The notes below the pieces were generated by a model. The model did not search any database. It was given only the letters and a program-made list of their open reading frames with translations, and was not told the origin of the DNA. Shown one piece after another: positions 130 to 23,022 of a stretch of DNA of 23,884 nt (the first letter of the stretch is position 1; each line of letters opens with the position of its first letter). The translations under genes and the position numbers were made by a program. Origin of the DNA: Parvularia atlantis (lineage: Eukaryota; Opisthokonta; Rotosphaerida); assembly GCA_943704415.1 (NCBI GenBank), contig CALSCO010002071.1:1-23884 (forward strand), given 5' to 3'.

Positions 130-2243
130 ATGGCCGGCTTCGACATCCACGTCCCGCCAGAGTTCCAGGACATCAACACGGTGGTGATCCCGCAGGTGTG
201 TTCACCCGCGCGCGCTCGCGCATGCTGGCTGAGAGCGCACCGCCCGCCAGGCCAAGCCGTACGTGCTGCCGCCGGGGATATACCTCGAGCCGCTGAACGG
301 CACATTCACGATGCTCGAGGTGCGCAAGCGGAGCGTGCCTTGCCCGCCCAGTTCGCTGACCTGTGACCCGCGCGCGCGCGGCCGCGGCGCCAGGTCGACC
401 TCACTCACCCCGTCAAGCTCGGCCGGGCTAGCGACGGCACTTACAACCCGCAGTTTGTCGGCTTCTCGAGCAAGGTCGTGTCGCGCCAGCACGCGGAGCT
501 GTCGAAGCAGGGCAACAAGGCGCGCCGCGCTCTCGCCGCCACCGCGCACGGCACCGCGCGCTGACGGTCGGACGCGCGGCGCAGGTGTTCATCCGCGACC
601 TTGGCAGCAGCAGTGGGACGTTCATCGACAGCCAACGGCTCTCGCCCGCGGGCAAGGAGAGCACGTCGGTCGAGGTGCGTGACGGCCAGGTGGTGCAGCT
701 CGGCGCGGACTTTGCGCCCAACACGGACGACCGTGCGTGCATGGCCTGCCGCGGCACGGTGTGCGCGCTTGATGCCCGCGCCCGCAGCGACCCTGCGCTG
801 CATCATGTTCAAGCTCACCGTGCAGGCGCCCGACACGGCCATGACGCCGCAGATGCTCAACGCGCTCAGCAACCTGACGATGGTGCAGCCCAACGCGGAC
901 GTGTGCGTGCGCATGCGCCAGCGCGGCCCCGTTTCTGCGATCGCTCAATGCCCGCGCACCAGGCCGCACACGCGCACGCCGCCCGTGCCCATCAAGCTCA
1001 ACGGCCCGCGCGCTCTCGGCACACCGCCGCCGATGGGGTGCGCCGCTGCGTGCCGGACGCGTGTGGTCTCACACGCCGCACAGAAGCCCGCTGCTCACGC
1101 CCGGTGGCAACAGCCGCCCGGAGCTGGCCAACCTGACGTCGGCGATCATGCAGAAGCGGCCCTCGGTCGATGAGGCGATGCAGCGGAGCAGCCCGATCAG
1201 CGCTGTGCCGCCCATGCTCGGGCGCAAAGGAAGGCACGCGTCGCGGCCGCGTGCTGCTTCCGCGCGCCCTGACACGGGGCACAGCGTGCCGATCAACGTC
1301 GCGGGCTCGTTCGGCTCACTGCACCCGTCGTCGAGCTCAGACTCGATCTCGAGCGTGTCGTCGTTCAACCGGCAGGACGCCGACTCGGTCACAGTCACCG
1401 TGCAGAGGCACGTCGCCCCGGCGAGCGGCCCGCGGCTGCGGCTGACACGGGGCGGGCCGCCCCAGGGAACGCAACCTGCTCACAAAGGTGCAGGTGATCG
1501 CATCCAACGGCAAGGACGTGTTCTCGGTCAACGTGAAGGCGTGGGCGACGGGCAGGTGCGCGCGCGCAAGGCTGGGGCCCGCTCGCTCCGCACGGGCTTG
1601 GCTCACGCGGGCGGCATGCGCCCGCGCGCCAGGAAACTGCTCATCCAGGACCACCGGTGCACGTTTACGAAGGTGCCGTACATGGAGGTCATCCAGGACG
1701 CGTCGCGCAAGGACGGCACCAAGTTTCAGGTGCGCCGCTTACGTGAGCACGTGCGCACACTCACGCGGGCGCGCGCGGGGCAGGTTGTCAACCAGAGCGG
1801 CGGGGCGCACATCGCCTACATCGACAAAAAGGGCCCGAAGAGCTGCCTGGTCGAGGTGCGCCGCGTGAACGGCGCATGCGCGCGCGTTACGATGCTGAGC
1901 GCGGCCGCAGAGCGCGTGGGGCAACTTTGCGGCGAGTGGCGACTTTGACACCCATTACTTTATCCGCAACTCGATGACGGGGGTGCGCGCCCCTCGCGAC
2001 GTGCAGAGAGAGAGACGCGCAGAGTTGACGATCTTGTGCGGCAGGTCGAAGTGGCCGAGGTTGTGTCGTCGCAGACAAGCAAGAACATGGGCAGCGTGCA
2101 GCGCGCGCTGACCGTGTATCTGCTGCGGGACGTGCAGTTGCAACTCCCGCTCTCGACCGTGGTGCGTGCGGCCCCTTGCTGCCGCGTGCGCGACGCGCGC
2201 CGACGGCTCAACACAGGTCATGCTCACGCTCCTGCTCGACTGA
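130..2243 (+). CDS. FHA-domain protein with a beta-rich C-terminal region
   Basis: Multi-exon gene of roughly 470 aa. Exons include 130-195, 251-319, 394-519, 585-732, 788-902, 963-1037, 1084-1407, 1466-1555, 1633-1729, 1784-1855 and 2217-2243; phases agree across all but one junction. The FHA domain (phosphothreonine binding) spans about residues 40-150 and shows the GRA, SRQHAEL and IRDLGSSSGTFID motifs, ending in RCIMFKLTVQ. FHA domains with the SSSGTF form occur in fungal Dma/SLMAP-type signalling proteins, but I see no RING finger or coiled coil here. A Ser-rich linker follows, then a region (KLLIQDHRCTFTKVPYMEV onward) that might be a tubby/LURP-like barrel; that is a guess. Introns at 520-584 and 1408-1465 use GC donors. 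The junction near 1983-2022 is uncertain, and an optional GC-AG intron may exist at 1234-1284. The ATG at 130 starts the conserved text; 106 is an in-frame alternative. Confidence 0.75.
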
Positions 2244-2342
2244 AGAACCCCGAGATGCATCCCTTTCCCCCTCTTGGACCGCGCACGGCTGTGTTTGATC
2301 AGAGGACGACTACTCCGCGGTACACTTGCTTTGGGGTCAGGA

Positions 2343-2904
2343 TCAGTGCTCGACCTCCCACTCGGCGGGCGGCGTCCTACCATCGGCGTCAGTACGAGCG
2401 GAAAGAAGCAGCGCGAGCGTGGCACACCAGTTGCTCAGCGCGCGCCGCGGGGCCTGTTGGTGCGGCTGTGGCGCCGGCTGCGCGCCGCGGCTCGGTCGGC
2501 GCACGCGCACGCGCACGCTGCCCGCGCCGCCGCCGCCGAGGGGCGTGAGCCGCGAGCCGCGACGTCCGGCGTTGGTCGGCGACGCGTCCGGCGGCGGCAG
2601 GCTCGGGAGCGGGCCGAGGTCGCTCTCGCGCACGGCGACGTGGCGCATCGTGTTGAGGTCGGCGCGCGAGCGCGTGCGCAGGACGAGGTGCAGCGGCGGC
2701 CGGTCGCCGAAGAAGCGATTGAGCTTGGACTCGCGGCGTGCGGTCTGCGTGCGCGCGTGGGTCTGAGCTGGCCGACGCACGCGCGCGCGCGCAGCACCTG
2801 CGCACCACGTCAACGTCGGCCGCGCTGTAGCCCGACATCACGAGCAGCTCCGACGTGCTGCGGCGGTTCGGCGAGGCGGCGGCGGCGGGGTTGGGGCGCT
2901 CCAT
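2343..2904 (-). CDS. Small protein with a KLNRFFGDRPP motif
   Basis: Two-exon gene: exon 1 2904-2806 (33 codons), intron 2805-2745 with a GTGCGC donor and CAG acceptor, exon 2 2744-2343, giving about 166 aa. The N-terminus is Ala/Pro/Ser-rich and contains SELLVMSGYSAADVDV. Immediately after the splice comes ESKLNRFFGDRPP, then LNTMRHVAVRESDLGPLPS and a low-complexity Gly/Arg/Pro tail. The K-L-x-x-F-F-G-x-R-P-P motif resembles a short conserved element I associate with fungal MAPKKKs of the BCK1/Mkh1 type, where it lies N-terminal to the kinase. No kinase domain is present here. The function is unknown. The gene lies 99 bp past the FHA stop (convergent) and 230 bp downstream of the P450 stop. 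Long plus-strand frames over this stretch have no recognisable content. Confidence 0.5.
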
Positions 2905-3134
2905 GCTGCGCGGCTGAAACGCGGCGTTTTGAGCAAGCCGCGCACGCACCACAACCACCCGCACAGCCCACAGCCTCCCGCAACCAGCGTGTGCAGACAC
3001 GCGCCCACGCGCGCCGAGACGAAGCCAGCGAGCGTGGCGGTGACGACGCAGCAAGGGGCCTGGGAAATACGGCCCGATCAGGCAGGTTCGCCATCGCCCG
3101 ATCAAACGCGACTCGGCCTCACTCACAACCCAGA

Positions 3135-5643
<2,509 letters not shown>

Positions 5644-5753
5644 GACAGGCTTGGCTTGCCGACGGAACTCAGCGCACCAATCGCTTCCCCCCCCTCGGAC
5701 CTGTGTGCAGGTACGGCCCTTTGCACAATGGATGCAAACACACGCGCGCCCGC

Positions 5754-7722
5754 TCAGGCCTCGGCGCCGCCCACGCAGAAGCGGTCCTTGTCGACGAGCA
5801 GCAGCGCTTGCCCCGTCGGCTGCCACTGCAGCGCGAGCACGGCAAAGTTGGCGATGGGCAGCTGGTGCGCGCGCGGGCGTGAGCAGCAGCGGTCTCCCGC
5901 GCGCAAGCCTAACCTGGAGGCACTCGATGGACCCGAGTTGCCACAGAAAGACCCAGCCCGTGCCCGTGCAGAAGGCCAGCTGCGCGTCGGTCTCGATGTC
6001 GCCGCGCTTGTCGGTGGCCGCGCTGGCGCAGGCGCGCGGGGTTCGGCACACGCAGGCCACAAGTGGGCGGGCCGCACCCGCGCGACGGGTTCCACTTGAC
6101 CGAGCGCACGGGCTCGCGCGTGACCAGCAGCGCCACCTGCTTCAGCTGCGCCAGGTCCCAGATCCACAGCGCCGTGGGCATGTTGTCTGCGCGGCGCGTT
6201 CAGGCGAGGCGCGGCGGGCGCGGCGCCCCGGCGCACCACTGCGGCTGACGAGGAAGCGTCCCTTCGGGCTGAACTCAACTAGACCGACGCCGGCGCGCGG
6301 TGCGGGCTTCTCGTAGTCGGGTGCGACGGTCGGCAGGGTGATCTGCGTGCTCACGGGCTCGACTGCGCCCTGGTCCGTCACGCCGCGCTTGTGCGCACAC
6401 CAATCAGCGCACGCACAGCGGATCTGCATCGCGTGCGGTCGCTGGCGCGCAAACTCGGATGCGTTCTCGCGCGCCGTGCCGTCCGGCAGGAACTCGGTCT
6501 CCTTGTACACCTGCGCGGGGAGGGGACGGGCGTCATGGGCTGGTGCGGCGCGCGTGCGGCACACACCACCTCCGGCAGGCTCACGGCCGCCGGGTGGTTG
6601 AACTCGGCGCACGAGTCAAAGTGGATGTAGTCGAGCAGGCGCACCTGTGGCGCGGTCAGCCGCGCTGGCGGCGGCCTGCAGGGCACGCGCCTTTTCGTCG
6701 TAGCTACCGACAGCGACCACGCCAAGCGACGAGATCCGCGCAGTCTTGACGCCCAGCTCGTTGTCGTAAGCCGAGTAGCTCTTCAGGCACCGCCCGTCAA
6801 CACCATAGACGCATACCTTATACTGCGGCGGCACACGCGGTCACGCGCCTCCGCCGCTGCCGCGCTCACGCACCTCCAGGTACGAGTCGGTCACGATCAG
6901 GAACGCGCCGTTGGGCGACCATTCGATGCTCTCGAGCTCGTTCGTCTGCACAGGGAAGCGCTGTCGCGGGCGCACCTCAGACCGTGGACCACGCGTGCGC
7001 AGGGTAGCCCGGGCGCGCGCACCCGCAGCAGCTGCCACGAGCGCGTGTCGTAGATGCCCACGAAGTCCTTCGTGTCGCGTCGCTCAGCCACGGCGGCGTA
7101 GTACCCGTGGAAGCTGATACCTGCGACGGCGCCGTCAGCACGCGCGCGCCACGTTGCACGCACACCCTTCTCGCGCCGCCGCCCTGCGCACTCGAGGATG
7201 CCCTGCGTGCTCGAGTCGAGGAACCAGACCGAGACGCGCAGCTGCGCGGTGCGTGAGCACGGCACCGCCGACGATGCGTGCGCACCTCGTAGTCGGAGAA
7301 GACGAGCAGCGACGCCGACGTGGGCGCCCACATCGCGCGCACGCAGCTGCGCCGCGGCGGTTGAGCGAGCGCGCGCACTGCCCATCGATGCGCACCCGAC
7401 CGCGCTCTCATCGATGTGCGCGATCAGCCCCTCGCCGTCGCGCTGGAACACCTTCACTTGCGACGTCTTGTACAGGCCGCACAGCACCATCTGCCCATTG
7501 GGCGACCACTCGAGTTGCTGGCGCACGCGCGCATCAACGTGTGTGATGCGCCATGCCTGAGCGCACCTGCACGTCGTCGCCGCACGCAAACGTCCGCAGC
7601 TTCTCACCGCCATCGCCGCGCCATAGCGTCACGGCCGGCCCCGCCACCACCGCCAGCGTCGTGCCCGCCGGGTCCCAGCGCGCCAGCAGGCCCGTGGCCG
7701 GCGCGGGCTGCGAGAAGTTCAT
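5754..7722 (-). CDS. WRAP73: WD-repeat protein WRAP73 (WDR8)
   Basis: Multi-exon gene whose translated exons follow human WRAP73 from end to end. The start MNFSQPAPATGLLARWDPAG matches the family MNFSE start. It continues with QQLEWSPNGQMVLCGLYK, HIDESAVG, VSVWFLDSSTQGILE, GYYAAVAERRDTKDFVGIY, SWQLLR, ELESIEWSPNGAFLIV, YKVCVYGVDGRCLKSYSAY, GVVAVGSYDEKAR, VYKETEFLP, VGLVEFSPKGRFLVSR, PTALWIWDLAQLKQVALL, LAFCTGTGWVFLWQ and ALQWQPTGQALLLVDKDRFC. It is a WD40 propeller; in animals WRAP73 works with SSX2IP at centrosomes and cilia, and in fission yeast the homologue acts at the spindle pole body. An equivalent microtubule-organising role is inferred here. The protein ends shortly after VDKDRFC, so the extreme C-terminal tail is shorter than in human. 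The stop lies 110 bp upstream of the P450 start, on the same strand. Confidence 0.93.
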
Positions 7723-7727
7723 GTCCG

Positions 7728-7762
7728 TAACGGTCTATAATAGTTAGAATTCATATAGTAGC
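7728..7762 (-). promoter_or_regulatory. AT-rich TATA-like promoter element of WRAP73
   Basis: A short AT-rich island (tactatatgaattctaact on the minus strand) sits about 10-40 nt upstream of the WRAP73 ATG in otherwise very GC-rich DNA. Position and composition suggest a core promoter. This is inferred, not shown. Confidence 0.4.
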
Positions 7763-7801
7763 GTGAGCCAGCAGGCGATGTACGGGTTTGCCCGGCGCGG
7801 A

Positions 7802-8100
7802 TCACGGTGCGACAGGGTTGTGTGCGGCGGGCGGCGCGCGGCGGCGCTCGAGCTTGCGGTAGAGTGCGTCGTGGAAGCGCTGCTTGAAGGCGGGCGAGAC
7901 GGCCATGAGCAGCGCCGGGAGCGACTCGTACACGCGCCCCTCGTGCAGCTCGGCCGCTACAACGTATAGCCCGCGTTCGTCACGTCGACGAGCAGCGCGG
8001 CGCCCTCGAGCATGTCGAGCTGCAGGGGCGCGCCCCGCCACCGCCCTCGGCCGTCGACAGGGGAGGGTCGCCCGGCTGCTGTCTGACGCCATTTATCCAT
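7802..8100 (-). CDS. GSKIP-domain (DUF727) small protein, with a frame break
   Basis: From the ATG at 8100 the frame reads MDKWRQTAAG ... LDMLEGAALLVDVTNAGYTL and hits a stop near 7975. The next frame continues at once with VVAAELHEGRVYESLPALL, then MAVSPAFKQRFHDALYRKL and a stop at 7802. Together they cover the GSKIP domain: human GSKIP has an ELTEAGLRVVG strand and a YSLLDTLSPAYREAFGNAL helix pair at the matching places. GSKIP-type proteins bind GSK3beta and, in animals, PKA; the same domain also occurs in CLU proteins. About 100 aa is the normal size for the stand-alone form. The one-base frame change at the conserved TNAG/VV position may be a sequencing error or a real mutation. I found no splice pair that repairs it. 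The stop is 79 bp upstream of the WRAP73 ATG. Confidence 0.55.
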
Positions 8101-8147
8101 CACACTTACGACGGTGAGTTACCGATTCGCTTCACCGTCCATTCATC

Positions 8148-9750
8148 ATGGCAGTCGCTGCCCGCAGCGTGGGCTTCGTGCGCTGGCTCGCCACGCGCGT
8201 CACAACGCCCGCCGCGCCCACTGCGCGTTCGCCATTCGTGTACGGTGCCTCCAGCTTTGCTGCCGTACGCATTGGCAGGGATGGCGCGTTCTTCGTCGAC
8301 AACACGCGCTTCATCCGCACCGGCGCCGGCAAGTACTTTGTGCTCAAGTGGGCGGCGTGGGCGGCGACAAGGACGCGATCGCGACGCGGCTGCACGACAA
8401 GATCAACACCAGCATTCGTACGTGCGTGAAGAAGTACAAGTTTGCAGACGTCGACGTCAACGACAAGGTCGACGAGCGACTCGAACGAGGCCAGGCCGTC
8501 CATGTCGCCCTCATGGGCCGTCCGCTGATGCTCCTCATCGACGAGTACGACCGCTTCGCCAACAAGCTGCTGCTGGAAAACCCGTCTGCGTACAGCTCCA
8601 TCGTTGCTGGTGTATCGGGCGAACGTGGATCATCGGCTGGGCCCAAACTTGCCGGCTGCCGACTTCCAAGACGACGGGCTGCCGTTCCGCATGCTCACGG
8701 TGGGTCTCAGCCCCATGGCCCTCGCCGATGCATCCGGTGCCAATTCCATCAGCAATTTGACCTTTGAGCCTGGCCTCGCGGACGCGTTCGGCTTCACGAA
8801 GGCCGACCTTGAGGCGGGCATGCAGCTCCTCGTACAGGGTGGGCGCGTCCAGCCCGACCAGGCGCCGTCGCTGCTGGCGCTGATGGAGCAGTACTACAAC
8901 GGCTACAGGTTCCACCCGGAGCAGGAGAAGCAGCTCTACAACCCGACGCTGTGCCTGTCCCTCTTTGACAAGCTCTGGAGGCAGCCTGGCTTGGCGACAA
9001 AGCTGCTGGCTGCTGGTGCCACGCCCAGTGGCTCCGGATCGTCAGCCATTGAGCCAGTGATGAACGACCCGAACGTGGCCGTCAGCGACAGCGTCCTCGA
9101 TCTGCTTGCGCGCAACAGGCACATGGATGGCCTGGTGAGGCGGCTTCAGGTCGGGCCCGTTGCCCTCGATCATCCGAACGTCATAGAGCCTGCCCTGAAG
9201 ATGCGCCATCTGACGGACTTTGAGACGCAGCCAAAGAACTTCCTCCTCTCGCTGATGTACTACCACGGCGTCGTGACCTACGGCGACGGCTCCATTCTGT
9301 CTCCTGACCTGCAGATTCCAAACGCCCTTGCGCGCACCAAGTTCGTTGCGCGCCTCGTCGACTGGTGACTGCCACACCGAATCGCTGTGGAAAAGAAGCC
9401 TGAAAGGTCACCGTTTCAAGTTCAATCCGCTGAGGAGAGGAGGCTTCACATCGATCTCTGACAAACGGAATGAGTTCAAAATGTTCGTCTGACTGCGGCA
9501 CTGCCAGTACGGTCGGCGAACATTTCAACATCGGCAAGGAGCAGGTGCAGGACTACGGTCGCCTGTTCATGGAGATGCCACAGAATGTCGGCACCGCCCC
9601 GCCCAAGTTGCTGCTCATTACGTCGTTCTGGGTGACGCACGTGCTGGTCGAGGAGGTTCCGTTTAAGTCTGGCTGGGACGACAAGGTCATGGCCCGAGAG
9701 GTCACGGACAAGGAGGCCACGGCCCAAGAGGTCAACGACAAGCAAGCCGC
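8148..9750 (+). pseudogene. Decayed AAA-ATPase-like / PD-(D/E)XK family gene (PF09820-type)
   Basis: Intronless coding remnant. The first part (8148 to about 8345) has VYGASSFAAVRI and FFVDNTRFIRTGAGKYFVL, the usual start of this family. The Walker A region that should follow (a PRRFGKS-type motif) is missing. A second frame (about 8345-8625) gives GDKDAIATRLHDKINTSI and the Walker B-like MLLIDEYDRFANKLL. A third (about 8604-9368) runs through DGLPFRMLTVGLSPMALAD, the family signature YYNGYRF and SLMYYHGVVTYGDG to a stop at 9366-9368. The nuclease-like C-terminus is only hinted at around 9520-9750 (NIGKEQVQDYGRLF). Two frame changes, an internal deletion and an early stop argue for a pseudogene. 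Family members are common in bacteria and expanded in some fungi. Lack of introns in an intron-dense region suggests a recent arrival. Confidence 0.75.
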
Positions 9751-10033
9751 GGGCATTGTGTGTGGCTGTGTGCCGCCGGTGGTGTCGAGAGGTTCAAGTT
9801 GTGGGCAGACAGAACAGCCAGATCGGTACACAACAACACGCTCAATGTTAGGGCTGCGGGTGTGTGTGGGCGCGGCGCGGACGTCGCTCAGCAGGGTGTG
9901 GGGGCACCACTACTACTGACAGTGAGGGGGGGGGGGGCGCCTGATCATACCGAGTGAGGTCACGCGCTGACCGCTCTCTGCCTGGTGTTCTGCTCTTCAA
10001 GTTTGCACACGCACATCATCACTCGCGCACGTC
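9751..10033. other. Intergenic stretch with a poly-G run
   Basis: Between the AAA-ATPase remnant and the stop of the ubiquitin-like gene. It contains a run of 12 G at about 9926-9937. I see no gene, RNA or repeat family. Base composition is less GC-rich than the neighbouring genes up to about 9900, like the remnant itself. Confidence 0.5.
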
Positions 10034-10788: not shown

Positions 10789-10809
10789 CGCGCACACGCT
10801 CTGGCAGTG
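10789..10809. promoter_or_regulatory. 21-bp divergent gap (bidirectional promoter region)
   Basis: The UBL gene (minus) and the 2PGK-like gene (plus) have predicted ATGs only 21 bp apart. If both starts are right, the 5' UTRs must overlap or promoter elements must lie inside the opposite gene. Using the inner UBL Met (10623) would widen the gap to 186 bp. Confidence 0.4.
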
Positions 10810-12515
10810 ATGCTCGATCACGTCGATGTCACCGAGGCCGATCCGGGGCCGGGGTGCCGCCGGTGGCGGTACAGCGCGCACCACGTGCAGCACATCCTCC
10901 AGTTCATGGGCTGCAAGCAGATCCGTGCGCTGCGCATCACCGGTGCGCGCCGCCTGTGTGCGCGCGTGGGGCTCGCTTGACGCGCGCCCGCGCGACAGAG
11001 ATGGTGTTTGACGAGCTTGCGCGACGCGGATGGGGCGCGCGGCAGGAGCCCGTGCCGCTCGCCACTTTCCTCGAGGTGTGCGCGCCGGCCGTGAGCGTGC
11101 GCTCGTGCCTGCGGCCGACCGTGTGTGCGCGCCGCAGATCGTCGGGCACGCGCTGATGGAGCTCGGCTATGCCTGGAGTGTGCTCGAGCGCGACTTCCGC
11201 ATCGCCCGGCGCGTCACCGGCCAGCGGCAGTCGCTCTGCATCCTGCTCGGCGGCACGTCCGGCTGCGGCAAGGCGCGCTGACCACCGCGGTGCCATGCTT
11301 GGCTGCTGACGCGTCTGCGCCGCAGTCGACGCTCGGGTCGCTGCTGGCGAGCCGTTTGGGCATCACGACCGTGCTGTCGACCGACAACCTGCGGCACCTG
11401 GCGCGCAGCTTTGTGTCGCGCGAGGACGACCCCGTGCTCTGGGCGTCGTCGTACGACGCGGGCGAGGCGCTGGCCAGCAGCACGGTGCCGGCGGGCGGCG
11501 ATCAGCGGGTGTGCACCGCCGCTTGTGCACCCATGTACGCCCACACGCGCCCGCACGCAGGTGATCGAGGGCTACGAGGCACAGAACCAGCGGCTGTACG
11601 CCAAGATCGAGGAGACGATCGCGCGCTTCGAGCGGCGGCACGAGTCGCTTGTGATGGAGGTGCGCACACGCCGCGGACGGCAGCTGTGCGACGTGTGACG
11701 CGCGGACGCAGGGCGTGCACCTATCGGTGGCCACGACGGTCGAGCTGATGCGTCGGCACCGCTCGTGCATCCCGTTTTTGATCTTCATCAGCAATGAGGC
11801 GCGCACACGCGCGTGTGCACGAGTGTGTGCTGACGACCGCGCCGCAGGCCAAGCACACCGAGCGCTTCGCCATCCGCGCCAAGTACATGACGCTCGAGCC
11901 GCGCCTGAACAAGTACGTCAAGTACTTCTCCAACATCCGCACGATCCAGGACCACCTCTGTCGCCAGGCCGACCAGGCGCAGGTGCTCGCAGCGGCGCAG
12001 GGTGCACACGGCGCGGCTGACGAGTGCGTAGATCCCGAAGGTCGACAACACCAACGTCGACCGCAGCCTCGCGATCATCCACCAGACGGTGCTGATGGCG
12101 CTGCGCTACCTCGACCAGAACACGGCGCTGATGGACGCCGGTTCGCGCGCGTGGCTCGTTTGGCGTGCGCGCTGATTGACCGCGCGCAGAGACCGGCCGG
12201 GCGCGCGCGCTGTGTGGTCTGTACCGCGAGATTGAGGACCGCACGCGCGGCTCCAAGGCGATGCTGCAGGTCATCCGCAACAAGGTGCGCGCTCGCTGGG
12301 CTAGCGGCGGCAAAAGGGCCTGACGCCGTGCGCCGCAGCGTCGCACGCTTTCGGATCCGAACTCAGGCGTGCCCGCGGTCGCGCTCGAGGAGCCGACGTC
12401 GCCCGGGCCGCCGCCAGCCGCGCCGCCGCCCGTGCCGATGCCGCACGCCGCCGCCGCCGCCGCGCAGTGGCTCACGCAGGGCTTTGAGTTCGATGCCTCG
12501 TCGCTGGGGTCGTAG
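10810..12515 (+). CDS. 2-phosphoglycerate kinase-like P-loop protein (plant LPA1 family)
   Basis: Exons from 10810 keep phase throughout (10810-10942, 10999-11075, 11138-11272, 11326-11508, 11561-11659, 11712-11798, 11848 onward, 12032 onward). The start [15 protein letters not shown] leads into [15 protein letters not shown]. The P-loop is [20 protein letters not shown], split by an intron between S and the preceding K. Then follow [72 protein letters not shown] and [15 protein letters not shown]. These match plant LPA1 (low phytic acid 1) and prokaryotic 2-phosphoglycerate kinase block for block. Plant LPA1 affects phytate levels; the reaction in eukaryotes is not settled, so kinase activity on a small phosphorylated acid is inference. 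The C-terminus is Pro/Ala-rich. Introns 11273-11325 and 11799-11847 have GC donors. RPS18 starts 62 bp downstream. Confidence 0.9.
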
Positions 12516-12577
12516 GGCGTACCGTTAATGATTGATGGATGGTGGGACGAGCGGCCTCTTTCGCGTACCCTGCAACC

Positions 12578-13329: not shown

Positions 13330-13620
13330 GGCCGCGGAGTGCCGTACGCGGGGCCCAGCAGGCGCGCGGGTGTATGGGGCTCTGTGGGTTTGTGCGAGCC
13401 TGTGCATTGAGACCGTGCCACCCTCGCCGCCACCGCTCGCTTCCCCTGCTGCCGTGCCGTGCCGTGCCCGACTGCCGCTGTGATGAGCGACTTACTTACC
13501 TACATTGGCTGACGAGCCATGATGAGCATGTTTTTCAGTTTGCCTGAGCGGCAGTCGCGGCATAACCTCGCTCTCCTTCTCCTTCTCGCTCGTTTTCCTT
13601 CCGCCGCCACAACAACGTCG
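13330..13620. other. Convergent intergenic region
   Basis: 291 bp between the stop codons of RPS18 (plus) and the LIM-RGS-PX gene (minus). It must hold both 3' UTRs and polyadenylation signals. A TC-rich tract lies at about 13570-13600. I see no gene or structured RNA. Confidence 0.5.
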
Positions 13621-16600
13621 TCAGTGATACTTGACGCGGAAGTTGGTCGACGCCTGCGACAGCCGCTTGTTGAACCAGTAGTTTGCGAGGTCCTCGTCGG
13701 TTGGCTGCGGCGGCCGCAACGTTAGCCGTCCGTGCGCGCACACACACACGTACCTGCAGGAACGAGCGGATCAGCTGGTGCCGGCCGAGCGACTCGGACA
13801 TCTGCAGCAGTCCCTGCGGCGGCACACCGCGATCAGCGCCCTCGGCGCACGCGTGCGCACGCGCGCACCTTCATGTAGTAGTCGAGGTTCTGCATGCGCA
13901 CGCGCGACACACCCTTTGTGTGGCTCCGCCCGATGTAGATCTTGGGCGGGAACGGCGGGAAGATGGCCTCGGGGAACTCGCGTGTGAGCTAGGCACGGCC
14001 CGTCAGCACGACGTCTGCAGTCGACATCGAGCAGCGCACGTTGTTGTGCAGCTCGAAAAACTCAGAGTAGCGTCGGTAGATGAACAGGTCCTCAGGGTAC
14101 TCGGCCGGCTCGGCGCGGGCCGGGCGCGTGACCTTGATCTCGTACACCTGCGCGCGCACGCCGTTCAGCGCTACCATTGCATGCGAGACGCGAGACGCAC
14201 GTAGAACTTTTCGCTGTCGAAGCGCTTCTCAAAGTTGGTCACCTCAATCGACAGGATGCGGTCGTCGCCCTCGGGGGCCTCGGCCGCGTCGCTCTTGGTG
14301 CGCGTGTGCGTGCTCGAGAATGACCCGCCGCTGCTCAGGTTGCTTGTTTGCTGCCGCAGCGGCGAGGGCGACGCGACCCGTGTGCCGCGCGCCGGGCCGA
14401 GCTCGCTCATGAGCGCCAGGTACTTCTTGCCCGAGTTGCTGTAAAAGAAGCGCGGGAAGACCTCACGCTCCATGTCGTCAAACACCCACGACTGCGCGCG
14501 GCCGTGGTCAGCACTCGCTTGCCCGCCCCCTTCAGCAGCAGCGAGCGTGCGCGTGCCTGCGCCTCGTTGAAGTAGTTGCGTGGCACGGTCGTCATCTGCG
14601 GCACCGTGTCGGCGCGCGCCCGGATCGCCGGCGGCAGGTTGACCTGCAGCGGGCTCAGCGGCGCCGCTGACCGAGGCGCGGCGCACCTCCATCTCGGCGC
14701 CCGGGCGGATGTACTTGTGGTGGATGTTGGTCGCGTACATGAACAGGTCCTCGTCCTTGCCATTGACTGCGCGCGTGCGCCAGTGCGTGAGGCAGAGCGC
14801 GCGGGCACAGCGTCGGCCGCGCGCACCGTCGATGATTTTGAACTGCTCCGCGTCCAGCCAGAACGAGATCTTCTCCACGCTAAAGTCCTCCATGCAAAAC
14901 TCGACCAGGTAGTCGATGCCGATGTCGCTGCTGAGCACACTGCACGCAGAGACCCGCTTCAGCACACGCACACCGTGCACCTCCAACAACGCACCCCTCG
15001 AGGCAGCGCGGGTTGTTGGCGTGGCGCGACTTGGGCCGCGCGGGCAGCGGCCTGTTCGCAAACGACTGCCTGTACCACGGTCAGACGGGGCCGCACCCGC
15101 TCGCCAGCGGGGCGGCGCACCTCCGCGGCAGGACGGGGCTGCGGCCCGTGAGCGCCGCGAGCCTGTCGGGCGGGATGGCCGAGAGCGGCTTGGACACGTA
15201 CGCCGGTGTCCCGTTTGTCGCCGGTGCCTGCGGCTGTGGCTGTGGCTGTGGCGGTTGCGGCGGCTGCGGCTGCGATGGCGGCGGTGCCTGCTGTGCGGGC
15301 GGTGCTGCGGGCGGCTGGTCGCCGAGCGACGACGCGGCCAGCTGCTCGGCAGTGTCGTCTTCGTCTTGCCTGCGACGGCGTGAGCTCGCGCGCGTGCGGA
15401 CGAGCGCACGAGCGCGCACGCACGTGGTCTCCTCGTCCGCCTCGGACGACATGTTGGGCGACCAGCGCTTGTTGAAGACCGACTCGCGCGCGATGCACAC
15501 GCCGCAGAACGGCTCTCCCTGCTTCGGGTAGAACTTGCCGGCGTCGCCGATGAGGCGCATGCAGTTGAAGCAGCGGAAGCATGCTGTTTCGCGCGCTCGT
15601 CAGTGCACACAGACAGCGCGACGCACACGCGCACAGAGGTGGTACGCCGAGCCCAGCGCAAAGATGCTCTCGCCCACGATCGACTGATTGCAGGCCTTGC
15701 ACTTTGGCGCACCTAGTGGGCAGTGCGGCCCGTCAGTGCATCGCACAGCACAGCGGCGCGGCGCACAGTTGTAGCAGATGGGGTCGTCGGTGTCGTTGAG
15801 CATGAACTGCTCCTTGGGCTGCATCCGGCGCGCGCACGTCGAGCACTTGAAGCAGGCGAGGTGCCAGTAGTGCGGGCCGAACGTGAGGCACTCCTCGCTG
15901 TCGCCGACCGCGCGCCCGCACAGCTTGCACGTCTGGCGCCTCGCCGTTTAGCGCCGGCCGCGCATCAGCCCCCCATCGACCGCGCCTTGCGGTCGCCCTC
16001 TTCCTCGTCCATCTCCCGCAGCTGCTGCGCGCGCGTCTGCGACGGTGGCGACGCCGCGATTGCCGGCGAGCTGCTGCCGCTGCCCGTGCGCGGGACGGGG
16101 ACGCCCGTGCCGCGTGCCACGTCCATCACGTCCTTTTGCGCCAAACGCACGTCAGACGGTGTGCCTCGTGCGCGCGCGAGAGCGGTTCGACCCCGGCCGC
16201 ACCTTGCAGACCTGCGCCAACGCCTTGAGCTGCACGAGCAGCTCGCCGCGCGGCCGGCGGCGCTCGGCCGGCACGGCGAGGTCTGTGCCGCGCGTTTGTT
16301 GTGGGTTTCAGGGCGCGGACAGACAGCGCGGACGCACCGGCCTTGATGTCGCCCACGATCTGCCGCAGCGCGCCGTGCAGCACCTCCTTCTTGGCCTGCA
16401 GCTCGCCCTCGGCCGCTGCGCGTGCGGCGCGTGGGCGACGTCGCGCGGAGAGGGCGGGCGGCACAACGCACCCGCGCCCGTGCCCTCGACCGCACGCGAC
16501 GCGGCCCCCGCGAGCTGCTTCACGGCCGCGACGAGCTCCGTCGTGCGCGCGACGGCCTCGGCCTCGTCGTGCAGCTTGGCGCGCACCTGCGCGCGGCGGG

Positions 16601-16686
16601 CAACGTCGGCACGCGGGCCGCGCGGCGCGCGTCGTGCGAACCAGGTTCGAGATCGCCGTCACAAGCGGTCGCTCGGCGGCATCCAT
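13621..16686 (-). CDS. LIM-LIM-RGS-PX multidomain signalling protein
   Basis: Large multi-exon gene. The N-terminus (MDAAERPLVTAISNLVRTT, ELVAAVKQLAGAASRAV, ELQAKKEVLHGALRQIVGDI, GELLVQLKALAQVCK) looks like a helical bundle of the GIT/vinculin-binding kind (low certainty). Two LIM zinc fingers follow: CKLCGRAVGDSEECLTFG, HYWHLACFKCSTC, ICYNC, then CKACNQSIVGESIFALG, YH-x-x-CFRCFNC, FCGVC. After a Pro/Gln-rich linker comes an RGS domain (VLSSDIGIDYLVEFCMEDF, KISFWLDAEQFK, FDDMEREVFPRFFYSN), then a PX domain (YEIKVTR, LFIYRRYSEFFELHNNV, FPPFPPKIYIGRS, RMQNLDYYMK, LGRHQLIRSFLQ) and a short tail ending RVKYH. RGS domains accelerate GTP hydrolysis by G-alpha; PX domains bind phosphoinositides; LIM domains bind proteins. 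A membrane-recruited G-protein regulator at polarity sites is inferred. The exon join before LIM1 uses a GC donor (intron 15985-15933). Confidence 0.82.
15229..15300. repeat. Imperfect GGCTGT/GGCTGC hexamer repeat coding a Pro/Gln tract
   Basis: On the minus strand these hexamers encode PPQPPQPQPQPQAP in the linker between LIM2 and RGS. Such tracts expand by slippage and usually form flexible linkers. Confidence 0.7.
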
Positions 16687-16751
16687 CGCTGAAACCGTGC
16701 GTCTCAACCCGCCCCACCTTGCCCTTCGCGTGACCGTGCTTGTTCTCACAT

Positions 16752-16825
16752 TGTGTGTGTGTGTGTGTGTGCGTGCGTGTGTGTGTGTGTGTGTGTGTGC
16801 GTGCGTGTGCGTGTGCGTGCGTGCG
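16752..16825. repeat. (TG)n / (CGTG)n microsatellite
   Basis: Alternating purine-pyrimidine run of about 74 nt with interspersed GTGC units. It lies between the MBL stop and the start of the LIM-RGS-PX gene, i.e. within the latter's 5' flank, 66-139 nt upstream of its ATG. Such runs can adopt Z-DNA. Confidence 0.95.
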
Positions 16826-16847
16826 GGGCGGGCCGGGAGCGGGCGCG

Positions 16848-17824
16848 TCACGCCGACGTCGCCAGCTGCGCCTGGCGGTCCATCGCCCAGTCGTCCGGCG
16901 TCGACAGCACCGTCGCGGCCAGGTGCCGCTTTGAAAAGTCGCCCTGGGTGAAGAAGTACATGCCGCCCTCGGAGCCAAACAGGCGCCGCGCGATCTCGCT
17001 CGTTGGCAGCCCGCGCGCGCGCAGGTCGGCCACGGCCGCGCGGGTCTCGCTCAGGAACGTGAGCCGCTCCTGCAGCGCCGCGCGCCCGTCCGGCACCATG
17101 CCGCGGTGCGAGCATAGGACCGTGTCAAAGTCCAGCCGCAGCACGTCCTCCAGGCTGCGCAGCTCGCGCCCCGCGTCCTCCTCGCGCCGGTAGTACACGC
17201 GCCGCCGCGCCACAAACAGGTCGCCGGTGAACAGCAGGCCGCGCTCCGGCACGAGCATGCAGTGGTGGTCGACGCAGTGCCCCGGCGTGAACACGGCGCG
17301 GATGCTCACGTCGCGCCCGATCGACAGCGCCGGGCCGTCCGCCGCGGCCGGCAGCGTCCCGCGCGGCCAATACGGCTCGGCGTCGCCCCAGATCACCCGC
17401 CGGTACCACTCTTGCGGGTACGGGTGCCGCAGCAGGTCGCGCGTGAGCGGCGGCGCATGCACGGGCACGCCGAGCTCGCGCTGGATGCGCGCCCCGTTGC
17501 CGGCGTGGTCCTGCACGTGCGCCCGCGTTCCGTCAGCGGATCGAGCCACGACGTGCATCGCACGCGCCTCGTGGTGGTGCGACACGACGACGAGGTCGGT
17601 CGGCTCTGCGCGAATGAACGCCTTGGCCTGGGCCCACTGTGCGGGTTCGCGCGACGTGTCACATTCTGTATCGCAGCCGGACAACGCGCGCGCACCTGGT
17701 TCGGGCTGCCCGTGTCGATCACGACGCGCCCGACACGCCACAGGAACACGGCCGTGTTGACCTGCGCGCGCACCCGGCCGACGTGCAGTCCGAGCACGGG
17801 CCCGCACGTGACCATCACGGCCAT
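16848..17824 (-). CDS. Metallo-beta-lactamase-fold hydrolase
   Basis: Three exons, 17824-17696, 17636-17568 and 17510-16848, total 861 nt, 286 aa, close to LACTB2/glyoxalase II-like sizes. The N-terminal strands (AVMVTCGPVLGLHVGRV, VNTAVFLWRVGRVVIDTGSP) lead to the metal motif SHHHEDHAGN, formed only after splicing: exon 2 ends HHHE and exon 3 begins DHAGN. Further ligands are in FTPGHCVDHHCML, LFTGDLF and VLCSHRGM. A C-terminal helical part (LPTSEIARRLFG, FTQGDFSKRHLAATVLS) resembles the winged-helix tail of LACTB2-type enzymes. It is a predicted zinc hydrolase of a thioester, phosphodiester or similar bond; the substrate is unknown. The second intron (17567-17511, 57 nt) has a GC donor, a length divisible by three and no stop. 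The start codon lies 29 bp from that of the divergent YTP1 gene. Confidence 0.88.
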
Positions 17825-17853
17825 GCCGGCAAATACTGCAATCAATCAGACCG
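17825..17853. promoter_or_regulatory. 29-bp divergent gap between MBL and YTP1 start codons
   Basis: A small AT-richer patch (aaatactgcaatcaatcaga) separates the two ATGs. It contains CAATCAATC, which could be a CCAAT-like element, but this is weak. Transcription starts probably lie inside the opposite coding region or the UTRs are nearly absent. Confidence 0.4.
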
Positions 17854-19608
17854 ATGGCGCGGAACCTCGCTGTTGCCGGTTCGGCGCTGCTGCTGCTCGC
17901 GGCCGCGCGGTCGGCCGCGGCGCACGGCGGCGACCACGACGACGACATGGACCCGGACAGGTTCAAGTCGTCGCTCATGACCGACGAGCCTATGGACGCG
18001 ACGCTGTGGGCGCACATCACGTGCATGGCCCTCGCGTTTGGCGTGCTCATGCCCCTGGGCGTCGTGCTCGGCCTGGCGCGGCGCTACCAGCTGCACGCGA
18101 TGGCGCAGGTGCTGGCGACGGTGTTGGCGCTGGTCGGCTACCTTCTCGGCCACGCGCACGGCGGCCGCCAGTACGAGCCCAACAGCGCGCACCGCGGCTT
18201 TGCGTCGTACGTGTTTGCGCTGCTGCTCATCCAGGCGGCGGTGGGCGTACTGCTGCGCGTGGCCGGGCGCGTGAGCCAGCTCAAGAGCATGATGCACATC
18301 ATCCGCGGGCCCGTGCGACTCCTGCACCGCTTCGGCGGCTACGTCGTCCTGCTCGCGGGCATGACGCAGATCGTGCTTGGCGTGGTCGTCTCCATGGGCT
18401 TCTGCTACGAATCTGATGGCTGTGCGCCCGCATGCGCGCGTGCCTGCCCGCTCCGCCTCGGCACTAACGGATGGATGGGCGGCTGTGCGCCAGACCACAC
18501 GAGCCAGTGCCTGTCGCACTTCATCACCGGCGGCGCGTTCCTCGGCTTCAGCCTGATGATGGTCGTCTTTGTGCGCATCCGCGGCGGCTGGCTGCAACGC
18601 GAGGGCCGCTCTGTCGAGTTCTACGACAGCATCATCGTCATGATCATCGGCTTTGTCGAGCTGGTGGCGCACCGCAAGTCCGTTGGGGGACAAACGCGCC
18701 GTGCATGCACTGACCCGCGTGTCCAGGTTTGGCCCGAACGTCGCGTGGAACCAGAGCGACGAGCACGCGTCGGTGCGGCTGGTTCATCTGCGCGCGCACG
18801 ACGCGCCGACTGACGCACCTCCGCGCAGATGGGCATTGCGGCGTTTTCCGCTGGCGTCGTCGGCTTTGTGCTGTCGTGGAACGGCCGCCGCAACGTCTTC
18901 CCGGGACTGGCCTTTGTCATAGTCGGCATGTCGTTCATGGGCCACGCGCAGCACACGCTCGGCGAGGCCGTCATGGAGCACGTGCGTGTCGTGCGTGCGC
19001 AAAGATGCCCGGTGGCTGACCCGTCCGGCCGCAGTCGATGGCGCAGCACGGCATGTTTGGCCTCGTTATGGTCGCGTGCGGTGCCAGCCGCATACTCGAG
19101 ATTCTGCTGGACCCGAAGCCGCGCTGGGGCAAGGACGCGAACGGCGCCTACTACCTCGCGCCGCTGGTACGTGCCGCACGCCCGCTCGCCGCCTCACTGA
19201 TCGCGCGTGCTTGCGTGCGAAGTGCATGGCCGCGGCGGGTGTGCTTTTCATGGCCGCCAACGAACAGCAGATGGACACGATTATTCGCCTGCGCGTGTCT
19301 TCGGTGGCGCTGATCAACGTGTGCTTCGCGTTCGCGCTCTACGCCGTCTTCTTCTTCTACATCCTGACGGACCTGTGGGCGCGGCTGACGTGGTTCGACG
19401 AGAAGAGCGCCAAGTGCGTCCGACTGCGCCGCGCCGCGCCGCCGCTGACTTTTGTGTTGTGGGCGCGGCAGGGCGACAGGTACGAGTGCGACCGCGCTGG
19501 AGGACGACGACACGAGCCAGCTGCTGCTGGACGAGGCCGACGGGAGCACGTCGCACACGTCCGACGACACGTTCGAGATGGAGCCCGTCAAGGCTGGCGC
19601 AGTCTGAG
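17854..19608 (+). CDS. YTP1: YTP1-family multispanning membrane protein, copy A
   Basis: A signal peptide (ALLLLAAARSAAAHGG) is followed by an acidic/His patch (GDHDDDMDPDRF) and a cytochrome b561/DUF2427-like half: LWAHITCMALAFGVLMPLG, MAQVLATVLALVGYLLGHAHG, FALLLIQAAVGVLLRVAG, LHRFGGYVVLLAGMTQIVLG. The YTP1 C-terminal half follows: ITGGAFLGFSLMMVVFVRI, YDSIIVMIIGFVEL, DEHAS/MGIAAFSAGVVGF, MSFMGHAQHTLGEAVMEH, MAQHGMFGLVMVACG, VLFMAANEQQMDTIIRLR, NVCFAFALYAVFFFYILTDLW, and an acidic tail (ALEDDDTSQLLLDEADGST). Introns include 18678-18726, one from about 18768, and one near 19412-19471. YTP1 proteins are fungal; their function is poorly known. Conserved His pairs (GHAQH, MAQH) could bind haem or metal, as in b561 proteins. 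The junction near 18421-18508 is uncertain because it can be read through in frame. Copy B starts 36 bp after the stop. Confidence 0.88.
17880..18356 (+). repeat. 5' homogenised block of YTP1 copy A (partner 19701-20177)
   Basis: Aligned by eye at a constant offset of 1,821, the 477 bp differ at only two positions. Similarity falls sharply at 18357 (GCGGGC versus GCCGGC). Synonymous sites are identical inside the block. Confidence 0.95.
19367..19593 (+). repeat. 3' homogenised block of YTP1 copy A (partner 21182-21408)
   Basis: Offset 1,815; 227 bp with two differences, spanning the last intron and the acidic tail. Identity in the intron cannot be explained by protein constraint. A shorter shared tract across another acceptor lies at 19016-19060 and 20834-20878. 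Confidence 0.95.
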
Positions 19609-19644
19609 CGCGCCAGCGCGCATATCTGTTCTGTCACGGAGGCC

Positions 19645-21422
19645 ATGATGGCAATTGCCTTCCGCCGAGCCGCTGTGTACATGCAGTCAACGGTTGCTGC
19701 TTCGGCGCTGCTGCTGCTCGCGGCCGCGCGGTCGGCCGCGGCGCACGTCGGCGACCACGACGACGACATGGACCCGGACAGGTTCAAGTCGTCGCTCATG
19801 ACCGACGAGCCTATGGACGCGACGCTGTGGGCGCACATCACGTGCATGGCCCTCGCGTTTGGCGTGCTCATGCCCCTGGGCGTCGTGCTCGGCCTGGCGC
19901 GGCGCTACCAGCTGCACGCGATGGCGCAGGTGCTGGCGACGGTGTTGGCGCTGGTCGGCTACCTTCTCGGCCACGCGCACGGCGGCCGCCAGTACGAGCC
20001 CAACAGCGCGCACCGCGGCTTTGCGTCGTACGTGTTGGCGCTGCTGCTCATCCAGGCGGCGGTGGGCGTACTGCTGCGCGTGGCCGGGCGCGTGAGCCAG
20101 CTCAAGAGCATGATGCACATCATCCGCGGGCCCGTGCGACTCCTGCACCGCTTCGGCGGCTACGTCGTCCTGCTCGCCGGCGCGGTGCAGATCGTTCTGG
20201 GTGTGATCGTCTCCATGGGCTTCTGCTACAACGACGGCGGTGCGTTGACCCGCCTGCGCGCGCTGTGGCCGGCCTGGCTGATGCGGCCACGCTGCAGCGC
20301 ACACGGGCCAGTGCTTCGCGCACTTTGTCACCGGCGGCGCGTTCCTCTTTTACGCGCTGATCATGATCATCTTTGTGCGCGTCGGCGGCAACTGGCTGCG
20401 CCGCAAGGGTCGCCCGATCGAGTTCTACGACAGCATCATGGTCACGCTGATCGGCCTTGCGCACCTCTTCGTCAACCGCACGTGCGTCGCCGCGGCGCTC
20501 CTGACGCTTTTCGTGCCTGAGCAGAGCGCGCATCGCAGTTGGGGCAAGAACACCGGCTGGCACGAGGGCGACGAGCACACGGCGGTGCGCTGCACGCTCG
20601 CACGCGCACAACAGGACCACTGACGGGCGCGCGCGCGCGCGGGCAGATGGGCCTGGCGGCGTTCTGCGCCGGCATCATTGGCTTTGTGATGGCAGTCAAC
20701 GGCCGCCGCAACGTCTTCCCCGCGCTTGCGATTATTATCATCGGCATGTCGTTCATGGGCCACTCGCAGCACAACCTGGGCGGGGACTACATGCAGCACG
20801 TGCGTCTCGCGCGTGCGTGTTTGCATCGCCAAACTGACCCGTCCGGCCGCAGTCGATGGCGCAGCACGGCATGTTTGGCATGGTCATGATCACGTGCGGC
20901 CTGTTCCGCATCCTCGAGATCGTGCTCGAGCCCAAGCCGAGCTGGGGCAAGGACGCGAACGGCGCCTACTACATAGCACCTGCGGTGTGTGCCGCACGCC
21001 CGCTTGCAGCTCGCTGATCGCGTGGTCCCACGCTCAGGGCATGTGCGCGGCGGGCGTGCTTTTCATGGCCGCCAACGAACAGCAGATGGACACGATTATT
21101 CGCCTGCGTGTGTCGTCCGTCGCGCTGACCAACGTGTGCTTCGCGTTCGCCTTCTTCGCATTCCTCTTCCTCTACCTGCTCACGGACCTGTGGGCGCGGC
21201 TGACGTGGTTCGACGAGAAGAGCGCCAAGTGCGTTCGACTGCGCCGCGCCGCGCCGCCGCTGACTTTTGTGTTGTGGGCGCGGCAGGGCGACAGGTACGA
21301 GTGCGACCGCGCTGGAGGACGACGACACGAGCCAGCTGCTGCTGGACGAGGCCGACGGGAGCACGTCGCACACGTCCGACGACACGCTCGAGATGGAGCC
21401 CGTCAAGACCGGCGCGGCATGA
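19645..21422 (+). CDS. YTP1: YTP1-family multispanning membrane protein, copy B
   Basis: Same architecture as copy A with a different N-terminal leader (MMAIAFRRAAVYMQSTVAAS) before the shared ALLLLAAARSAAAH signal peptide. The first b561-like half is almost the same DNA as copy A. The middle has drifted: FCYNDG, then HTGQCFAHFVTGGAFLFYA, IMIIFVRVGGNWLRRKGR, YDSIMVTLIGLAHLFVNRT, WGKNTGWHEGDEHTA, MGLAAFCAGIIGFVMAVNG, MSFMGHSQHNLGGDYMQH, GMFGMVMITCGLFRILEIV. The C-terminus (VLFMAANEQQMDTIIRLR, LTDLWARLTWFDEKSAK, acidic tail ending KTGAA) again nearly equals copy A. The intron starting at the GTGCGTTG after FCYNDG has an acceptor at GCTGCAG. All predicted membrane helices and His motifs are kept, so both copies look functional. 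Expression may depend on the 36-bp gap or on read-through from copy A. Confidence 0.87.
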
Positions 21423-21480
21423 CAGCAGAGCGAGGGTGTGTCCGTGCAGCGCAGTTGTCCATCACAAGCCCACGTGGTCC

Positions 21481-23022
21481 ATGAGCGCAGCGCCCGCCGT
21501 CGACACGGTCGCGTCGTTCGACGTGCCGTGCTCGCTCGACGCGCTCTTCCGCGCGGCCTTCGCGGATGCGGCGGGCGTGGTGGCCGCGGTGCACGGCACG
21601 AGCCTGCGCGCGACCGGTGCGTGCAGCGCGCTCGCAGACACTCTGCGGCGAGTCCGTGACACGCGCGCGCGCACGCAAAAGACTACCGCTGCACGCCGTG
21701 GGCCACGCCGCTCGGCGCCGACGAGTCGCTGCGCACGCGCTCGGCCACGTTCCGCATGCCCATTCCGGGCTTCGTGCCGTTTGGCGGCGGCGTACTCGTG
21801 GACGTACGCGAGGACGCCGAGTGCCCATTCGTCGCCAACCAGTTGCGTGCCGTGGATGTGGGATGCGCGTCGTCGCTCTGACCCGCCGACCGCGTGCGCC
21901 AGCTACTTCCTTGTCTCGACCGTGCACCGCGTCGTCGGATCGATGTTTTCCGACTGCTTCTTTGTGCGCACCAACGTGCTCGCCAAGTACGTCGACCGCA
22001 TGTGCACACACGTCTCTGTCACAAGCAGCGTGCACTTTAGCGCCTTTACGGTCCTGCGCGGTGCGCAGCACGTCGCTCCCGCTTCGTGCCAGCCGTCGAC
22101 CGCTCATTGTCTGCCGTGCGCACACAGGTCTCCTGCTCAGCCAGGCTAGGCACGACGTCGCCGCGTACTACGCCGCGTGGCGCGACGCCGTGCTCGCGGC
22201 CGTCCAGGCGCTGCCCGTGGACAAGCGTGCCGACCACCGTTTGGCCCCGCGGTCGCGCGTGACCTTCCTCGACCACGTCCGGTGCGTGCGCCTCGCGCGC
22301 GCATGGCGCCTGATCACGTGCGTCACGCACAGCGAGGCCGGCATCGTGCGCAGGCAGGGGCTCGCGGCGCTGCTCGGTGTGCTGCGTGCGTGTGGTGCAC
22401 CTCGCCGGGCTGACGCACGCCCGACCAGATCCGCGCCCGCCACTGCACCCGGGCATCGTCAACCGCGGCATGCTCGCGGCCCTGCCCGGCCGCGCCTCCT
22501 CGTCTGCGCCCGCGTCGGCCATGTCGAGCCCCTCGAAGCGGCCTGGCTCGCGCTCGCCCGCGACGATGCGCAGCCGGCGCAACAGCCACGACGGGGCGCT
22601 GTGGAGCCCGTCGGGGCGGCGCTTGCGCACGCGCAGCCCTAAGCTGAGCGCGTGGCTGTTTGGGCTCAACCTGTCGGGCGTGCTGGCCTCGCTCACCGGG
22701 CCGTGGCAGACGGGCAAGGCACGCGCAACGTGATCGCGCTGGCTCCTGGCGGGCTCACACGCGCGACGTCGGCGCAGATTCTGGACGACGAGCTCGCGGC
22801 GAGCGGGGGGCTGTTGGACGCGGCGCCAGTGTCGAGCAAGTGCGTTGCTCTGTGCCTGTGTGCGCTCGCACGGCTGACGCGCGCGCGCGCGCCCGTGCCA
22901 GGCTGCTACGACTCAGCGACCCGTGGTCACACTGGACGACGGCCGCTGCGCTTGTGCTCGCCGTGTCGACGACGGTGCTCCTGCTGCGCAACGAGTGGCC
23001 GCTCTCGATGCTCCTCGGGTGA
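21481..23022 (+). CDS. VASt-domain (StART-like) protein with C-terminal membrane anchor
   Basis: The gene starts MSAAPAVDTVASFDVPCSLD with a strand-helix pattern (LDALFRAAFADAAGV) typical of the VASt domain start. Then come DYRCTPWATPLG, SATFRMPIPGFVPFGGGVLV, YFLVSTVHRVVGSMFSDCFF, VRTNVLAKYVDR and VSVTSSVHFSAFTVLR, the order seen in VASt domains of GRAMD1/LAM sterol transporters. A helical part follows (HDVAAYYAAWRDAVLAAVQALP). A Ser/Arg-rich linker (SSPSKRPGSRSPATMRSRRN) precedes a single C-terminal membrane helix (WTTAAALVLAVSTTVLLL). VASt domains move sterols or other lipids at membrane contact sites; the tail anchor would place the protein in the ER. No GRAM domain precedes it, unlike the classic LAM proteins. 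Intron 22719-22777 uses a GC donor; the junction near 21860-21900 is uncertain. It starts 58 bp after YTP1 copy B. Confidence 0.75.

Follow-up and report, generated by a model that had tools for sequence, protein, structure and literature searches.

Introns with GC-AG termini usually make up about 1% of the introns of fungi. The window studied here is a stretch of 23,884 nucleotides from Parvularia atlantis (Rotosphaerida), positions 1-23,884 of the forward strand of contig CALSCO010002071.1 in assembly GCA_943704415.1, and it raises the question of why so many of its predicted introns begin with GC. A preliminary description had listed seven such introns and put their rate at the order of one in ten, which fits our counts, although these lie closer to one in seven to ten. 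In the assembly, which totals 16.25 Mb in 616 contigs, the window corresponds to contig C487.

With a GC content of 69.8% (0.698, measured on a 224 kb sample), against a lower bound of about 65%, and a GC-AG share far above 1%, the genome belongs to the class of high-GC genomes in which GC-AG introns are abundant. It is apparently fungal, judged tentatively by gene content: we found Ytp1 and DUF2427 domains, a protein with HSF and receiver domains (Skn7-like), fungalysin, and a desaturase with a C-terminal cytochrome b5, which are marks of fungi.

Frequency of GC-AG introns and continuity across their junctions

Introns were predicted with a self-written two-strand Viterbi gene-finder that uses three-periodic coding tables and explicit introns. 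It was trained on this genome with GT donors only and then run neutrally, with all 16 start dinucleotides scored equally and one matrix for GT and GC; an earlier neutral variant gave GT, GC, GA and GG equal scores. The final model is a run with a GC-specific donor matrix. Local counts cover 274 kb (273,884 bases) and include a strict subset of the first 224 kb, where the strict filter asks for good length, branch site and acceptor, plus +3R, +4C and +5G. Intron density is very high, with 1049 introns of median length 57 nt predicted in the 273,884 bases by the final model.

Under the strict filter, the neutral run gave 247 GT, 53 GC and 8 CG introns over 274 kb, with no other pair above 5, and 198 GT, 45 GC and 7 CG introns in the first 224 kb, so that the GC-AG share by local strict count is 15-17%. 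The same run is noisy when unfiltered (GT 593, GC 115, CC 57, CG 54, and others). Within the window, its 133 introns comprise 80 GT, 14 GC and 39 with other dinucleotides, so the unfiltered run includes noise that is eliminated by the strict filter. These many spurious dinucleotides would suit the explanation that the GC segments are in-frame coding stretches or gene-finding artefacts, as would the fact that AAGGCGCG can be read as Lys-Ala-Arg.

A genome-wide tabulation argues against that explanation. We counted the pattern AG/GxRCG N20-50 CTGAC N4-24 CAG (the slash marks the exon end), with both strands summed and the reversed pattern as control. There were 2869 matches with T at x, 1811 with C, 110 with A and 53 with G, compared to 37, 100, 96 and 9 in the respective controls. 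AG/GA and AG/GG are thus rare beside AG/GC, and after subtraction of the controls C accounts for about 38% of C+T at +2 following AG exons. From the pattern counts and the local shares of introns preceded by NAG, we estimate that GC-AG introns make up 13-15% of all introns, or about 2,060-2,330 introns of the CTGAC/CAG form. The corresponding pair of patterns after CG gave 1390 matches for CG/GCRCG (reversed control 568) and 3875 for CG/GTRCG (control 146). This pair is less clean because GC-rich words within true introns match it, and we left the CG/GC counts out of the estimate because in several of the listed rows the match stops exactly where a GT or AG/GC match also stops. When hexamers preceding CTRAC and YAG were counted without bias, GGTGCG, GTGCGT and GTGCGC were in the top five by enrichment, and AGGCGC was observed 35 times where 12.2 were expected. 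As a feature of the sequence, the predicted GC-AG introns are confirmed and are spread genome-wide.

Retaining the introns bears on both their reality and their exact position. In the final model, 34 of the 47 GC introns preceded by NAG, and 253/320 GT introns, would on retention disrupt the frame or introduce a stop. These 34 cannot be read through; the remaining 13/47 could be, without frame or stop damage, and are a point in favour of coding stretches. Outside the window, we picked by eye 20 of 38 GC introns as likely to bear domains and scanned them both spliced and retained to the first stop. A Pfam match spans the junction in 16 of the 20, although in two of these (the RFC-like and LRR fragments) it is not the best-scoring match; the other four (C5 14542, C5 46609, C21 52091 and C26 1406) have no Pfam match across the junction. 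Retention lowers the junction-spanning score in 15 of the 16, for example from 266.4 to 78.6 for Cullin, from 173.8 to 49.1 for the gamma-tubulin complex, from 61.8 to 16.9 for FYVE, and from 66.7 (PH) and 46.3 (P450) to none, a drop that is partly trivial where the frame is broken. In four of the 15, however, the frame is kept and the score is still lower (GMC 142.3 to 128.8, AMP-binding 115 to 97.7, UDPGP 208.9 to 191.7, sulfatase 98.5 to 85.7). The LRR fragment is mixed, with LRR_9 falling from 66.1 to 57.8 and LRR_8 rising from 71.1 to 74.4. Against these results, the coding or artefact explanation is largely refuted, and we find it barely credible.

It is also highly improbable that the real donors are neighbouring GT sites and that the GC has been misplaced by a few codons. 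Some in-frame GT lies within 30 nt in 22 of the 47 introns preceded by NAG (none does in the other 25), but a GT donor of consensus form is found there in only four and is absent from 43. Alignments in the window argue in the same direction. The FHA domain interrupted by the intron at 520-584 aligns without a gap at GNK/VFIRDL to SLMAP and VPS64, the nearest gap being one of 2 residues about 5-6 residues upstream. The metallo-beta-lactamase fold at 17511-17567 (SHHHE/DHAG) aligns with no gap at the junction to SHEHFDHAG, and the RGS domain at 14492-14556 (NEAQ/SWVFDDMERE) aligns ungapped to DLAQKRIFGLMEKD.

Donor context and pairing with U1

In the neutral run, where one matrix serves GT and GC, the exon ends in NAG in 39/53 GC introns, 51/247 GT introns and 3/35 introns with other starts (Fisher P 4e-13 for GC versus GT and 8e-10 for GC versus the 35 others). 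The compensation at the exon end that had been proposed earlier is therefore borne out, but its form is NAG and not a strict RAG, with 8 CAG among the 33 NAG ends of 45 strict GC introns. A second compensation, not named in the preliminary description, is A at +3, which occurs in 16/53 GC but only 5/247 GT introns (Fisher P 1e-9). By a hand count among the genome-wide matches listed, GCACG occurs in 33 of about 100 GC rows and GTACG in 1 of about 100 GT rows. G at +5 is a condition of the strict filter, so the strict set gives no measure of compensation at that position. Phase 0 dominates after NAG exons in both classes (58/68 GT and 42/47 GC introns).

The predicted introns have the marks of U2-type GC-AG introns, namely a GC start with an AG end and a donor that is stronger elsewhere, here at -2A/-1G (NAG) and at +3A. 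They also resemble the GT introns in length (median 57 vs 56 nt), in branch site (CTGAC in 49/59 vs 241/320) and in branch-to-AG distance (about 18 nt in both), with the limit that introns of either class had already passed filters on branch site, acceptor and length. GT introns had been said to start GTGCGY, and we reached the same consensus. C is at +4 in 80% of GT donors in the neutral run, a preference that does not come from the starting matrix, since the same GTGCGY-like donors were obtained with the matrix uniform at the other positions.

The 5' end of the U1 snRNA gene is the standard AUACUUACCUG, so we rule out an altered U1 5' end as the cause, and +2C would cost one base pair. Excluding +2, the mean number of matches to U1 over 8 positions is 5.06 for GC donors after NAG, 3.75 for all GT donors and 4.51 for GT donors after NAG. 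The computed duplex energies after NAG are -3.69 (GC) and -6.26 (GT); GT donors not preceded by NAG have -3.63, and the full sets give -3.21 (GC) and -4.19 (GT). The match and energy set comes from the run with the GC-specific matrix and is partly circular. The values of -3.69 and -3.63 suggest that NAG lifts GC donors to the level of GT donors lacking NAG, but no further.

Intron composition (C 0.357, T 0.167) would give 68% C at +2 if the position were neutral. Compared to this, C stands at 38% when the exon ends in AG; in the remaining donors it does not exceed about 7% (14/210 gross, local strict set). The log-odds against +2C are about 1.0-1.3 in the first case and 3.4-3.6 in the second. 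Position +2 is thus weakly constrained in a strong donor context and strongly constrained otherwise.

We consider it probable that these are ordinary major-spliceosome (U2-type) introns in which T-to-C mutation pressure at about 70% GC has turned a GT donor into GC, a change tolerated in donors that are otherwise strong. Mutation would keep supplying T-to-C changes at +2, and with a normal U1 such a change would persist mainly in strong donors, those with AG at the exon end and, more often than in GT donors, A in place of G at +3. The weak constraint in such donors would let C reach about 38% of C+T, while C would stay rare in the rest. From the sequence, we infer that mutation bias may be the driver and pairing strength the filter, and that the introns are presumably spliced in the cell. 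A shift of donors from GT toward GC at high genomic GC, as suggested in the preliminary description, fits the C share after AG exons, the shift itself being an inferred step. More tentatively, +2 may be nearly neutral and gated by context, with GT and GC almost interchangeable after AG exons, +3A as a second gate, and the exon side together with +5G, and no longer GT, defining the donor; the genome might then be intermediate toward one with GC as its normal donor, as in Emiliania.

An altered splicing machinery in this lineage (U1 snRNP proteins, Prp8, LUC7-type factors or RNA modifications) that accepts +2C well, with mutation bias filling the space, seems unlikely, although it has points in its favour. 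In algae, GC-AG frequency is not predicted by GC content alone, and a role of U1 snRNP proteins or of base modifications has been suggested there (PMC3033335). The GT donors here are also unusual in their +4C, although the genome has matches to the METTL16 and SNRNP27 families. One point against such a change is the standard U1 5' end, and the dependence on NAG and +3A is what would be expected of pairing-limited, unrelaxed machinery. A literature search on LUC7 gave no result. Editing of the +2 C to U in the RNA ahead of splicing is the least probable explanation: we found no point in its favour, and it gives no obvious reason for the coupling to NAG and +3A.

Other components of the machinery were inspected as well. 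U6 snRNA has the standard ACAGAG box, and a changed U6 ACAGA box is ruled out as the cause. We also reject the idea that +4C follows from a loss of METTL16 or SNRNP27K, since both Pfam families match above cut-off (METTL16 family at C232:9464-10318, SNRNP27 family at C442:5342-5548); the METTL16 family is also above cut-off in 4/14 prokaryotic controls, so this is a match at family level to a putative orthologue. In Saccharomycotina, +4 switches between A and U (PMC10581693), and the +4C preference seen here falls outside that yeast alternative despite the two family matches. The single U6 match found (L011:1501-1662, which is C142:8820-8981) is longer by about 49 bases, which follow AAGAUUA a short way downstream of ACAGAG. 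Removing GTTGCG...GTCGTT would leave the usual AUUAGCAUGG, and the removed stretch does not end in AG. The extra stretch contains GTGCGAGCC, which we take to resemble a polymerase III B box.

Several points weigh against mutation pressure acting through ordinary U2-type introns. The introns are known here from genome sequence, and the local GC-intron counts rest on our own gene-finder, trained on the same genome. The final model gives a lower GC-AG share of 108/1049 (10%), some of these being poor. The genome-wide pattern counts some sites doubly and includes a few coding-looking repeats. CG/GCRCG is in excess over its reversed control, and some GC donors may lack an AG exon end, as 14 of the 53 local ones do. 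Compensation appears incomplete, in that all GC donors together pair more weakly than all GT donors. Finally, GC content alone is no predictor of GC-AG frequency elsewhere: Micromonas RCC299, at 64.1% GC, has only 2.7% GC-AG introns (PMC3033335).

GC-AG introns of the window and neighbouring features

The final model places 111 introns in the window, 12 of them GC, of which we judged 10 to be good; the other two, at 7735-7867 and 7957-8033 (both minus strand), were discounted as poor. All seven introns of the preliminary description are among the ten and are predicted in both the 4-dinucleotide and the 16-dinucleotide neutral runs, with the exon end AAG or GAG and the start GCGCG or GCACG that it had given, and all also end in CAG. 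Its list was incomplete, lacking the introns at 1234-1284, 6645-6690 (minus) and 14492-14556 (minus). Eight of the ten would shift the frame on retention by their length alone (65, 58, 46, 53, 49, 65, 53 and 59 nt), and read-through is possible for the other two, at 1234-1284 and 17511-17567.

On the plus strand, the intron at 520-584 (65 nt, AAG/GCGCGC...CAG), within the FHA domain, was found in both neutral runs and the final model. The newly found intron at 1234-1284 (51 nt, AAG/GCACGC...CAG) is without homology support. Those at 1408-1465 (58 nt, GAG/GCACGT...CAG) and 11799-11847 (49 nt, GAG/GCGCGC...CAG) have no in-frame GT within 30 nt. The intron at 11273-11325 (53 nt, AAG/GCGCGC...CAG) interrupts a Walker A motif, and its junction is covered by AAA_18 and AAA_33 matches that are both below the curated Pfam cut-off; a PDB search with this P-loop protein found nothing. 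The intron at 22719-22777 (59 nt, AAG/GCACGC...CAG), in a gene with a VASt domain, has the weaker branch site CTCAC and failed the strict branch-site filter, yet its retention would introduce an in-frame TGA.

On the minus strand, the newly found intron at 6645-6690 (46 nt, AAG/GCGCGT...CAG) lies in a WD40 gene, and its junction (residue 283) is covered by a match to a THOC3-type propeller that is below the Pfam cut-off. The intron at 14492-14556 (65 nt, CAG/GCACGC...CAG), also newly found, is the one within the RGS domain. At 15933-15985 (53 nt, AAG/GCGCGG...CAG), the intron stands directly before TCKLC, the start of the LIM region, with no in-frame GT within 30 nt. The intron at 17511-17567 (57 nt, GAG/GCGCGT...CAG) interrupts the metal-binding motif HHHE/DH.

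The window has other features of note. The predicted protein at 13621-16686 (minus) has two LIM domains, one RGS and one PX domain, a combination that we take to be unusual; alternatively, it may be two adjoining genes fused by the gene-finder. The genes at 17854-19607 and 19640-21421 are a tandem Ytp1/DUF2427 duplication with similarly placed introns, and no pair with GT in one copy and GC in the other was found, all 14 of their introns being GT in the final model. A long run of AG dinucleotides (4930-5035) lies within a predicted P450 intron (4888-5046, minus). An AAA-ATPase-like gene at 8148-9970, with a weak Pfam match, has 62% GC compared to 69% for the window and contains only doubtful introns while its neighbours are intron-dense; it looks mobile or broken. 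An Rfam scan of the window gave no result.

Comparison with known systems

Fungi on average have 98.7% GT-AG introns at 47.1% GC (PMC7072748). Meyerozyma guilliermondii is above this average, with about 6.67% major non-canonical sites, among which the GC-AG share is not separated (PMC7072748). Beyond Meyerozyma, we found no fungus with a comparable GC-AG frequency in a search confined to open-licence literature, mostly unopened titles, and we found no species-wise GC-AG figures in the part of PMC10639083 consulted. The genome described here suggests that mutation bias can push far a splice signal that is nearly invariant in most fungi, and in such genomes gene finders restricted to GT would probably misannotate a large share of genes.

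Among other eukaryotes, the donor CAGG[T/C]AAGT of Globodera rostochiensis also goes with a raised GC-AG share, but one of 3.46% in a 38% GC genome (PMC4901422). In human, GC 5' splice sites amount to 0.87%; their consensus has G at both -1 and +5, taken to compensate for +2C, and joint U5/U6 contacts have been suggested in this role (PMC11732430). The G at -1 agrees with our donors, whereas GC sites are rare in human and abundant here, together with +4C. The haptophyte Emiliania huxleyi is like this genome in its high GC content, its retained AG acceptor and the proposal of GC content as the probable cause (PMC4028052). It differs in that GC is the majority donor, at 56-65% in curated and RNA-seq sets, attributed to a genome of 65% GC, and in that GA reaches 4% of its manual set (PMC4028052), while GA here is near background (110 vs 96).

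A close likeness is also seen to Aureococcus anophagefferens (39.6% GC-AG, 69.5% GC) and Micromonas pusilla (22.2%, 65.9% GC), compared to 7.7% GC-AG in Chlorella (PMC3033335). They share with this genome a GC content of 66-70%, an exceptional GC-AG share and an unchanged U1 5' end AUACUUACCUG; they are algae, whereas this genome is apparently fungal by gene content and its share is about 13-15%. High GC had earlier been named as the cause in algae (PMC3033335, PMC4028052), with the proviso that further factors must act too (PMC3033335). A dependence of +2C on the exon end and on +3 is seen in the predicted introns here, while the consulted part of PMC3033335 contains no such test in the algae. 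With at least 2,000 estimated GC-AG introns and a standard U1, this genome makes it possible to measure how the constraint on +2 varies with the remaining donor positions. Algae already provide high-GC genomes with 22-65% GC-AG introns; the present genome apparently adds a fungal case to them, and with it a counterpart outside algae for an abundance of GC-AG introns whose cause has been called an enigma (PMC3033335).

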